Below, in pieces: positions 41,378 to 57,908 of a DNA stretch of 58,652 nucleotides. Each line of letters starts with the position of its first letter. The stretch's first letter is position 1. Location: the IMG/VR virus record IMGVR_UViG_3300032291_002473, positions 1 to 58,652 of that record; one strand, given 5' to 3'. The notes beneath the pieces are model-generated. The model worked only from the letters and a program-made list of their open reading frames with translations. It searched no databases and was not told the origin of the DNA. Source of the DNA: a virus. The position numbers and the translations under genes are program-made.

Positions 41378-41395
41378 AATTTATTTTTTGTAAAG

Positions 41396-41429
41396 ATAAA
41401 AAAAAGTGGATACATTTCTGTACCCACTT
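41396..41429 (-). terminator. Rho-independent terminator after the DUF932-like gene
   Basis: Read on the minus strand, an 11-bp stem AAGTGGGTACA / TGTATCCACTT (41429-41419 with 41414-41404, one G-T wobble) has the loop GAAA and runs into eight T. The very stable tetraloop makes this a convincing terminator. Confidence 0.9.
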
Positions 41430-41473
41430 GATTGATATATTTGTTTAACTATACTCCCTTGGAGCAAGTGTCT

Positions 41474-42892
41474 TTATAGGAAGAATTCACCTCCTAGTGT
41501 ATCTTTTTTATCATCATTATCAAAATCTAAATCAAAGTCATCCCAATCATCAACTACCTTAGTTTCAGTAGGTTTAACTTCTTCTACTTCAACTTCTACT
41601 TCATCTTCAATAACTGGTGATAAGTATTCAGGATCATTATCTACACCGTATAACTGTGAAGCTAATTCATCTTCTGTAAGTGTAACAACAGCTTTAGCTT
41701 CATCTGCAGCTTTAAGTCCTTCAAAAATAATCTGATCAGTAGTTGGTAAAACTAATTCTTCTTCTACTACCAGTTTATATCCTTCAATTGTAAACTCTTC
41801 TTCAGGTTCACCTTCTATTGCAGCTACTCTAGCATTATATTCTTCATCAGACTCAATGTGAATCTTGATATCATCAACTACTGCTGTTGCTTCATAAATA
41901 GTAGTAACTTCATCAACTACAGGTGCTTCAAAAGTATTACCTACTGGATCCTCATATAATAAACCATTGCCAACTGCATATCTTGGATCCTCATACCATA
42001 CAACATCTCTTTCAGCTTCTTCTCTTTCTTCAATAGCTTGAACTAAGTCAGCTTCTACTTCAGCTTTCTCAATCTCAGTAAGAATGTTTAACTGATTCTC
42101 AGGCTCACCATAATTTAACGCTAATGGATCAACAATATCTAAGTCAATGTCTTCTGTTGTATCATCAGTAAAGTTAACTAAATCAAACTCCATTGCAATA
42201 AACCAGTGTAGTTTTCTTTGATCATCCATCCAATCTTTTGGATGTGATTTTTTCAATGCATAAGTAACATGATTATAAAATGCCCATAAAGAATTGAAGT
42301 CACAGTTATAATCATAACTTGGTTTTTCCATCTGATTTTTTACAACTGATATTTGCTCATTAGTAAGAATCTCATATTCAGCATATAAGATACCTAATAA
42401 CTCAGCTTGTTTTCTTTCAGTCAATGTAATCTTTTTCATTGTGTCTTTATCAGCAACAATCTGAGTAAAGTACTCATCTGCATTACTAATCTGATCAATG
42501 ATAGTTTTAATAGTATCAGCATCTGCGGTTCCAGAATGTCTTCTGCTGTATGAACCCATATCTCCAGCTACCACTCCATTCATGCATATGAATACATATC
42601 CACCAATACCACACTTGAATCTCATAGTTTTGTTGTAACTGTTTGACCATGCAAACATCATCCCAACTTCTGGATCTTTTGTGTAGTTTAAATAATAAAT
42701 ACCTTGAGCAATAGAGCCGTCTGAATTAGCTCTATATTTCTCATCAGCAACAGTAAAACCATGTAGAGCTAATTGCTCTAATGCATTACTAATTACAAAC
42801 TCATGTGATATAACTGTGTATGTATCAGCATGGTTTGGTAAAGGAATAGTTCCTAAATATTCTCTTGTACAATTTTGTGTTCTTACGGCCAT
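41474..42892 (-). CDS. DUF932-like phage protein with acidic tail
   Basis: A 472-residue protein. The N-terminal 300 residues resemble the DUF932 family common in phages and plasmids, seen in GMMFAWSNSYNKTMRFKCGI, then GGYVFICMNGVVAGDMG (about 77-113). The family's function is not established. The C-terminal third is acidic and probably disordered, and finishes with DDWDDFDLDFDNDDKKDTLG and a short GEFFL end, very like the acidic tips of single-strand DNA-binding proteins. The SSB-like protein at 53756 also ends in DFDLD. The gene follows DNA polymerase with only one base between them, so it is co-expressed with replication. A role at the replication fork is an inference from the tail and the operon. 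Confidence 0.65.
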   Translation of the reverse strand: MAVRTQNCTREYLGTIPLPNHADTYTVISHEFVISNALEQLALHGFTVADEKYRANSDGSIAQGIYYLNYTKDPEVGMMFAWSNSYNKTMRFKCGIGGYVFICMNGVVAGDMGSYSRRHSGTADADTIKTIIDQISNADEYFTQIVADKDTMKKITLTERKQAELLGILYAEYEILTNEQISVVKNQMEKPSYDYNCDFNSLWAFYNHVTYALKKSHPKDWMDDQRKLHWFIAMEFDLVNFTDDTTEDIDLDIVDPLALNYGEPENQLNILTEIEKAEVEADLVQAIEEREEAERDVVWYEDPRYAVGNGLLYEDPVGNTFEAPVVDEVTTIYEATAVVDDIKIHIESDEEYNARVAAIEGEPEEEFTIEGYKLVVEEELVLPTTDQIIFEGLKAADEAKAVVTLTEDELASQLYGVDNDPEYLSPVIEDEVEVEVEEVKPTETKVVDDWDDFDLDFDNDDKKDTLGGEFFL

Positions 42893-55765: not shown

Positions 55766-55981
55766 TTATTTGGTTCCTATTCTCTTTTCTTGTTGCGGAG
55801 GAGTATTCATTTCTGCAATGCTCATCTTCTCAAATTCAGCTTTAAAAAAGCTTAATCTAGTATCACCATTTCTACATTTTAAGAAATGCAACACCATCAC
55901 TCTATCATTCTCAATTATAAATCTATCAGGGCCATAGAATCTGATCTTTTGTTTTGCTGGTCTATTAATACCTATTACTGT
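55766..55981 (-). CDS. DnaB-like helicase, exon 2 (C-terminal part)
   Basis: This is the 3' exon of the split helicase gene; it encodes 71 residues starting TVIGINRPAKQKIRFYGPDR. The segment LKCRNGDTRLSFFKAEFEKM is the C-terminal DnaB motif (K-x-R-N-G-D-T ... F) that contacts nucleotide across subunits. The open frame on its own could be read from a GTG at 55994-55996, but those codons (GTG ATA ACA AAA TTG) belong to the intron. I place the 3' splice site after the G at 55982 because the intron then ends in G, exon bases CAGTAA pair with the guide (P10), and HAD joined to TVIGINR reproduces the DnaB spacing A-D-x6-R. Confidence 0.85.
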   Translation of the reverse strand, partial: TVIGINRPAKQKIRFYGPDRFIIENDRVMVLHFLKCRNGDTRLSFFKAEFEKMSIAEMNTPPQQEKRIGTK

Positions 55982-56253
55982 CAATTTTGTTATCACAAGA
56001 ACTCTTTATTTCCTGTTTCACTAGTTTCATTTAGTTATTGCTAGTGTTCAGACTATCTCATCATATAAGTAGACAACCTTTGGTAGGTTCTTATATGTTC
56101 CGCACTCGTGGTACTTCATCTTCTCCAACACCATTTGGTAAGAAGGTATGTACTAGTCGTTGATCCTTCAATGTATTTCTACAAAGCTTGGATTAGGGTT
56201 GTCCTCTTCAGGGTTTTCCCAGATTCACGGAATTTAAAGCGGACTCAGTAAGT

Positions 56254-57051
56254 TTATTTAAAATGTATTTTATACAACATTGATTCACACATGTGAGGTA
56301 ACACTAAATCATTAAAAGTAACTACACTATCTGCTTTTATGTAGATTATAAAATTACTACCTGCTTTAGTTATGGTAGTATTAATATTAAACTGTAAAAG
56401 TCTTTGACAAAGTGTAATAATTTCCTCTATAGAAAAACAATTTGTTGCTAAGTTGTAGCCAGATTTTGCTTTAGAACCATCATCCATAAACCATATTGCA
56501 AGAATAAGTGGTGTTAATTCAAAAGTATCAAAAGGAATTTCTTTCTTGCTTTTGTACCAACTATCTCTATATTTATTAAATACTATATTTTGTATAGTTT
56601 CAATATTATACTGAATATAATTAGGCTTTTTAAATCTTATGTCAAATCTAGAGGCTTTTCTAAAATAACATTTAATATGTTCTTTTATTAAGTTGTACTT
56701 ATACTCAACATACTTTTTTTGTTTTTTACCGTGTTTAATTACTAAAGATGAATTCTTATTTCTTGCTTTTGATTTTCCAACTTCTCTTTTATAAGGTGAT
56801 ATATAACCATCTCCTAATAAGGAACCTACAATAATTTCATGTAATTTTCCACTAATTGCAGATACATCTTTACTTTTAGGAGCATACTTTCTTTCAAGAA
56901 GCATACTTACTTGTTTTTTAAGACCTGCATGCCTTATAGCTCTATTTATTGTTGCTGTGGAGCAATCATACTTAGCAGCAAGTTGTTTAATGTTAAGCAT
57001 TTGAAAAAATTCATCTTTTTTTAACTCATGTGATATCTCTATTGTTGTCAT
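56254..57051 (-). CDS. LAGLIDADG homing endonuclease in the intron
   Basis: A 265-residue intron-encoded endonuclease. An N-terminal helix-turn-helix (about 20-44, NIKQLAAKYDCSTATINRAI) precedes two LAGLIDADG motifs: LHEIIVGSLLGDGYI (70-84, catalytic D81) and LTPLILAIWFMDDGSK (179-194, catalytic D190 or D191). Two motifs in one chain mean it acts as a monomer. Between them is a basic, DNA-contacting region (GKSKARNKNSSLVIKHGKKQ). It would cut intron-less helicase alleles at the joined exon site and so spread the intron. The gene lies wholly between the 5' splice site and the guide sequence, and its stop is 9 bases before the guide. Codon use looks like that of the neighbours. It is intact. 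Confidence 0.9.
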   Translation of the reverse strand: MTTIEISHELKKDEFFQMLNIKQLAAKYDCSTATINRAIRHAGLKKQVSMLLERKYAPKSKDVSAISGKLHEIIVGSLLGDGYISPYKREVGKSKARNKNSSLVIKHGKKQKKYVEYKYNLIKEHIKCYFRKASRFDIRFKKPNYIQYNIETIQNIVFNKYRDSWYKSKKEIPFDTFELTPLILAIWFMDDGSKAKSGYNLATNCFSIEEIITLCQRLLQFNINTTITKAGSNFIIYIKADSVVTFNDLVLPHMCESMLYKIHFK

Positions 57052-57065
57052 ATTATTAGTTTTTA

Positions 57066-57073
57066 CAAATATA
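57066..57073 (-). promoter_or_regulatory. Candidate promoter -7 box for the endonuclease gene
   Basis: On the minus strand TATATTTG occurs 14 bases upstream of the endonuclease ATG and inside the intron; it fits the Bacteroides -7 consensus TAnnTTTG. A properly spaced -33 TTTG is not seen, so this is only a candidate. Confidence 0.25.
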
Positions 57074-57119
57074 GTAATTTTTACTAATTGACACTTTATT
57101 ACAAACTTTTTTCTTTTTA

Positions 57120-57908
57120 ATCCGCATGTTGTAATAATGCATCAGCACCAAATATGTCTGACTCTAATACATAATTACCATACTTACCATCTTCTGATCT
57201 TTCAGGGTTATCAATATTTCTATTTAACTGACTTAATATTATAAATGCAATAGGGTATATTCTTTTCAATGAAGTCAATGCCTCACCAAAATTGTTTAAT
57301 GTTTCATTCTTATCCTTTTCAGTCTGAGCTTTTTTAACAAGTAAAGAGTGATCCACAGATATCAATGTTTTCTTATAGTGTCTTACACCATTTTCATCAA
57401 CAGTAGAATAATAAGCCATGTATTCATGAATAGTTCTGATAAATTCATCTACAGTACATGGTTTTTCTACAACATCAATTGGATACTTTACTTTTTGTTT
57501 AGCATAGTCATAACACTTTTGTAAATCTTCAGGACTCAATTGTCCATCAGCACTACATAAATACTTATATGACTTACCAATTATACTTGAGTACTCTCTA
57601 ATTGCAGAAGATCTAGCTAACATTTCAAACTGAAACTGTAATACTCTAAAGTCTTCAGCTGGATTTAAAAGAAATGACTCTCTTACTATTTGTTCTACTA
57701 TAAGTGTCTTACCACTTGCAGGTCGGCCCGAAATTATAGTTACAGTATTCCATTCAATACCATCAGTCATTGCATCATTAAATTTAGGCCATGGAGTTCT
57801 AAGACTTTTAATCTCACCTGCCATTCTACCTTTTAAATAATGCAAGGATTCTTGAAAACCTTCTTTCTGACTATTCCACTTTAATGGTGTTTCTGCTTTT
57901 CTCAACAT
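57120..57908 (-). CDS. DnaB-like replicative helicase, exon 1 (RecA-like core)
   Basis: 263 codons of the helicase before the intron. Walker A is G61-R-P-A-S-G-K-T68, Walker B is L-I-S-V-D186-H, and the DnaB motif F-I-I-L-S-Q-L-N-R is at 222-230. The exon ends DIFGADALLQHAD, the conserved helix before the second strand of the core, and the frame then hits the intron's first codon, TAA. Joined to exon 2 the protein is 334 residues: the C-terminal ATPase domain of DnaB with little or no N-terminal domain, short for the family (E. coli DnaB is over 450). It lies 13 bases downstream of a small membrane protein gene and heads the helicase-Sak4-SSB operon. It unwinds DNA at the replication fork as a hexameric ring. 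Confidence 0.9.

Follow-up and report, generated by a model that had tools for sequence, protein, structure and literature searches.

We have found that a gene for a DnaB-like replicative helicase in a viral genome fragment (IMG/VR record IMGVR_UViG_3300032291_002473, whose 58,652 nt are called the window below) is very probably interrupted by a mobile group I intron. The putative intron, of subgroup IA and with an open reading frame (ORF) for a LAGLIDADG endonuclease, splits the helicase gene of what appears to be a crAss-like phage. The anatomy of the element and its exact insertion site can be read directly from the DNA. Splicing in vivo, activity of the endonuclease and homing are to be expected by analogy, because these mechanisms are established for the group I and LAGLIDADG families.

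Helicase exons, intron boundaries and intronless alleles

A preliminary description of this DNA had proposed a helicase gene split by a group I intron with readable splice sites. Joining the two exons (Table 1) indeed gives one frame of 334 codons plus stop (55766-57908, minus strand), while the unspliced frame meets a stop, TAA, at the first codon of the intron. Exon 1 matches DnaB_C in Pfam (3.4e-15) and phrog_19 (2.9e-18), and the joined protein has the RecA-like core of a DnaB-like replicative helicase with Walker A and motif 4; the predicted intron lies in the motif-4 region.

The comparison with intronless relatives that the preliminary description suggested turned out to be decisive for the boundaries. 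Searched with the joined helicase protein, IMG/VR returned 80 relatives. The junction was spanned in one piece at 83 of the 86 matching loci, and 81 of these show the orthologous motif A[LI]LQHAD|(T/N)..., though these counts do not measure intron frequency, since a protein search of this kind favours continuous genes in its ranking. In two close relatives (L002 and L003) the helicase is whole and aligns without a gap at D263|T264, with 95.6-95.8% DNA identity to the joined exons over 1,005 nt; excision of the intron thus restores the gene exactly as it stands in intronless alleles, joined at the same base. The boundary cannot slide and both ends are unique, because the intron starts with T and exon 2 with A, while the intron ends with G and exon 1 with T.

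Table 1. Coordinates in the window of the helicase exons, the putative intron and its parts
Feature	Position	Strand	Evidence
Helicase exon 1, 263 codons, ends CAT GCG GAT (H A D)	57120..57908	-	DnaB_C, phrog_19, uninterrupted homologues
Helicase exon 2, 71 codons + stop, starts ACA GTA ATA (T V I)	55766..55981	-	Uninterrupted homologues
Putative group I intron, 1,138 nt, first codon TAA, 3' end AAATTG (omega G)	55982..57119	-	Rfam RF00028 (3' part); exact absence in intronless alleles
Predicted LAGLIDADG homing endonuclease ORF, 265 aa, in P1 loop	56254..57051	-	LAGLIDADG_2, PHROG, I-SceI structures
P1 5' strand, exon GCGGAU, U.G at splice site	57120..57125	-	Pairing with internal guide
P1 3' strand, internal guide GUCCGC	56239..56244	-	Pairing; identical guide in AAA-gene sister introns
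P10 guide strand UUACUG	56246..56251	-	Pairing with exon 2
P10 exon-2 strand CAGUAA	55975..55980	-	Pairing with guide strand
P3 5' strand UUCCGUG	56226..56232	-	100% paired, 4 pairs changed on both sides, 21 introns
P3 3' strand UGCGGAA	56098..56104	-	Same P3 pairing
P4, P5, P6, P6a	56164..56220	-	Paired: P4 79%, P5 66%, P6 100%, P6a 89% (21 introns)
P7 5' strand GACUA	56154..56158	-	Invariant, fully paired in 21 introns
P7 3' strand UAGUC	56051..56055	-	Same P7 pairing
P7.1/P7.2 insertion between P7 and P3	56111..56153	-	P7.1 100% paired, covarying; P7.2 83% paired
P8 (CAUAUAAG/CUUAUAUG)	56062..56097	-	100% paired; 8/8 pairs changed on both sides
P9 + P9.1	55995..56046	-	100% paired; 12/13 pairs changed on both sides

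At both ends the exons pair with the intron. The pairing of exon GCGGAT with guide GTCCGC, with a U.G at the 5' site, stands as the preliminary description gave it, and the intron ends in the expected terminal G. The P10 pairing of CAGTAA with TTACTG is likewise present, with an A.A mismatch at the first base of exon 2 and pairs spanning exon-2 positions 2-7. Of the 40,663 T-ending positions of the window, 31 show a full P1 match if G.U is allowed, and 6/7 P10 pairs are reached by 1.9% of heptamers; at such chance rates P10 by itself is a weak sign and pairing alone is not decisive.

In the stretch from -53 to +122 around the insertion (0 being the last base of exon 1) the window differs from L002 and L003 at just two bases, -3 (GCT>GCG) and +3 (ACT>ACA). 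Both differences are synonymous; they complete P1 and P10 pairs, respectively. The full P1/P10 pairing of the window type is absent from all 56 distinct intronless alleles compared. Co-conversion from the donor, selection for splicing after arrival and chance could each account for a pattern of just two sites.

The group I core and the predicted endonuclease

Covariance-model search, also proposed in the preliminary description, recognises the conserved core. Rfam model RF00028 matches 56286-56031 across its full length with 43.8 bits and an E-value of 2e-9 in a 1.7-kb search, although below the curated gathering cut-off of 50 bits, so that a default Rfam scan misses the intron. Owing to thresholds and filters, no group I match came from the default-threshold scan or from scanning the whole window by E-value. 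No further introns were found in the window by Rfam, in the same whole-window E-value scan that overlooks the helicase intron.

A structure model of 59 pairs from P3 to P9.1 was derived from the sequence of the window itself and scored on 21 related introns. In these introns 93.8% of the model positions are paired, compared with 75.0% in shuffles and 30-43% with the partner strand slid. Changes on both sides were seen in 42 of the 59 pairs; compensatory cells number 226, against 64, and covariation scores 0.514, against 0.174. The P3/P7 pseudoknot is present together with P4-P6 and P8, with covariation in P3, P6 and P8, while P7 never varies. An insertion of P7.1 and P7.2 between P7 and P3 is the hallmark of subgroup IA in the established classification. 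Across the introns scored, P7.1 is 100% paired, with three of its four pairs compensated, and P7.2 is 83% paired; by this model the window intron belongs to subgroup IA.

Most of the intron is occupied by an ORF that the preliminary description had omitted. The P1 loop contains it entirely, with two bases left between its end and the P10 strand. Its 265-aa product matches LAGLIDADG_2 in Pfam (7e-35), a PHROG homing endonuclease (2e-21) and I-SceI structures (1.3e-9), with a weak helix-turn-helix-like match at the N-terminus. Both LAGLIDADG motifs are present with their acidic residues (LLGDGYI and WFMDDGS), and we assign the product, judged by its motifs, to intact-looking endonucleases of the I-SceI type.

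The window is a genome fragment with one gene running off at either end. The nearest annotated helicases, 28-35% identical to that of the window, belong to Crassvirales, and the neighbouring genes, which encode a Sak4-like protein, a primase, a DNA polymerase and giant ORFs, are consistent with a crAss-like phage as the source. Elsewhere in the window, at 41392-41511 on the minus strand, a weak match to the leader of ribosomal protein L20 stays below threshold (27.4 bits, E 0.29) and is probably due to chance.

Proposed mechanism and alternative explanations

In the proposed mechanism the transcript would fold with P1 to P10 arranged about two domains, P3-P8 and P4-P6. Guanosine would attack after GCGGAU in the first transesterification, the freed end of exon 1 would attack after the terminal G of the intron in the second, and the joined exons would yield the full 334-aa helicase. 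By analogy with its family, the P1-loop endonuclease would most likely act on co-infecting phages, cleaving helicase alleles that lack the intron; repair of the break would copy the intron plus short flanking stretches of the exons into the cut allele.

Several observations weigh against this reading. Besides the Rfam score beneath the cut-off, the window copy has three sound pairs in P4, three in P5 and two U.U mismatches in P6a; these imperfect helices may be the cause of the low score. The two synonymous changes at the junction could reflect chance or later selection. No second phage was found to carry the same intron at exactly the same site, so that homing from allele to allele was not observed as such; a search of IMG/VR for the exact 5' exon-intron junction gave no second copy, though near-identical records may lie outside this search.

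The defects in P4, P5 and P6a, with the low Rfam score, are what would be expected if the intron were present in a copy that no longer splices, leaving a truncated helicase or a dead variant genome. We hold this to be very unlikely: P1, P3, P7, P8, P9, P9.1 and P10 are all intact, as is the terminal G, the frames of the two exons and of the endonuclease are open, and only synonymous changes set the junction apart from intronless alleles. Moreover, the P4 deviation (UCUGGG/CCCUNAUCC) is common to the closest sister introns and thus seems characteristic of the group. LAGLIDADG genes are known to exist free-standing as well, and one inserted without any splicing RNA would also leave a split helicase; yet the 260 nt at the 3' side outside the ORF form a group I core with covariation, and the exons meet exactly as in the intronless allele, which leaves this explanation a negligible probability. 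Equally improbable is an assembly chimera of a helicase gene and an unrelated intron. The contig is metagenomic and, as said, its junction was absent from other contigs in the exact search, but P1 and P10 pair with these particular exons and the flanks on both sides are collinear with intronless relatives over ∼5 kb. A splicing-competent, mobile intron in the helicase gene remains our preferred reading.

Related introns and known systems

A sequence search revealed a large family of introns related to that of the window; the distribution is patchy. RF00028 at the gathering threshold reported only four of the 14 aligned family introns tested, with no report at L243, L246, L190, L103, L099, L228, L212, L275, L248 and L217. 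Together with the missed window copy, this means that the group is under-detected at the Rfam default threshold.

Close sisters reside in a gene for an AAA ATPase, which is split at one place, RAD|HRF, in four contigs (G003, G004, G009 and G024). The insert was read at DNA level in G003 and G004; in both it is a related intron, with exon GCGGAT, guide GTCCGC and a GIY-YIG enzyme. The sister introns of this gene (L166, L248 and others) share with the window intron the GCGGAT exon, the GTCCGC guide, the TAA start and a core 73-75% identical; they differ in host gene and in having a GIY-YIG/NUMOD1 endonuclease in place of LAGLIDADG. The window's own AAA ATPase gene, not far from the helicase, is uninterrupted and has GCTGAT at the corresponding site. 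A second interruption of the AAA gene, at residue ∼75 after ...(I/L)(G/S)D, was seen in the crAss-like relatives G021 and G022, and the occupants of this site in L190, L228 and L243 are related introns whose ORFs are GIY-YIG-like.

Helicase motif 4 and the AAA ATPase thus share one GCGGAT/GTCCGC pair, with a LAGLIDADG ORF in the P1 loop in one case and a GIY-YIG ORF in the other. Intron-bearing alleles carry GCG, while intronless alleles mostly have GCT or GCA; in the AAA gene the compared intronless alleles have GCT or GCA, except one that does not encode the motif. Tentatively, this points to one intron lineage moving between crAss-like replication genes by means of its RNA guide, by a guide-directed spread resembling reverse splicing, with unrelated endonucleases exchanged in the P1 loop, followed by endonuclease homing that fixes the matching flanking codons; we regard this scenario as possible but doubtful. 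A matched guide and exon in two genes with different endonucleases provides a natural experiment on the spread of group I introns to new genes.

An intron at the helicase P-loop in two close helicase relatives (L075 and L076) was considered and rejected, as the insert is an in-frame intein (Intein_splicing 8.6e-16, HNH). This HNH intein (L075:3071-4906, and in L076) sits at the Walker A site, GRPA|SGK; one gene has thus been struck by an intein in one lineage and by an intron in another.

The Bacteroides phages PhiCrAssBcn14/15/16/18 (e.g. OQ221549) carry an intron of the same lineage, with a core 83.8% identical over 135 nt. As in the window, the host gene is a helicase, the insertion is near the same motif and a LAGLIDADG ORF lies in the P1 loop. 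Unlike the window intron, it has guide GTCACG and exon CGTGAT, and its endonuclease is 28% identical. The insertion appears by eye two codons upstream of the window site, an offset that rests on reading of the motif, since BLASTP of the window helicase against that of PhiCrAssBcn14 gave no significant match. The PhiCrAssBcn14 helicase (L287:472-2110 in OQ221549) also appears to be interrupted a second time, shortly upstream of the GKS motif, by an insertion with a GIY-YIG ORF, so that this one gene seems to have two split points. The mis-annotation of a split helicase foreseen in the preliminary description does occur here: OQ221549 shows two ‘replicative DNA helicase’ coding sequences flanking a ‘hypothetical protein’, with the splice unannotated, and the words ‘intron’ and ‘helicase’ are both absent from the main text of the paper on these phages (PMC10354031). 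The window helicase should be annotated as joined exons, and the public PhiCrAssBcn genomes need the same correction. PhiCrAssBcn14 was cultured, from wastewater, on Bacteroides intestinalis, and the cultured hosts of these phages make splicing directly testable.

Group I introns in crAss-like phages have been known since 2021; the window intron adds a well-resolved case, with its endonuclease. In the parts consulted, Yutin et al. 2021 (PMC7886860) describe such introns with homing-endonuclease ORFs in core genes, replication genes among them, the hosts being MCP, PolB, primase and an ATPase (ATP_43b); those parts do not name this helicase and give neither splice sites nor structures.

Among phages at large, the window intron can be set beside long-studied examples. 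The group IA introns of T4 (td, nrdB and nrdD), SPO1 and Twort reside in protein-coding genes, have P7.1/P7.2 and encode an endonuclease, and the window intron has all three features in common with them. What sets it apart from the phage introns reviewed in PMC3984707 is the I-SceI-like LAGLIDADG ORF in its P1 loop.
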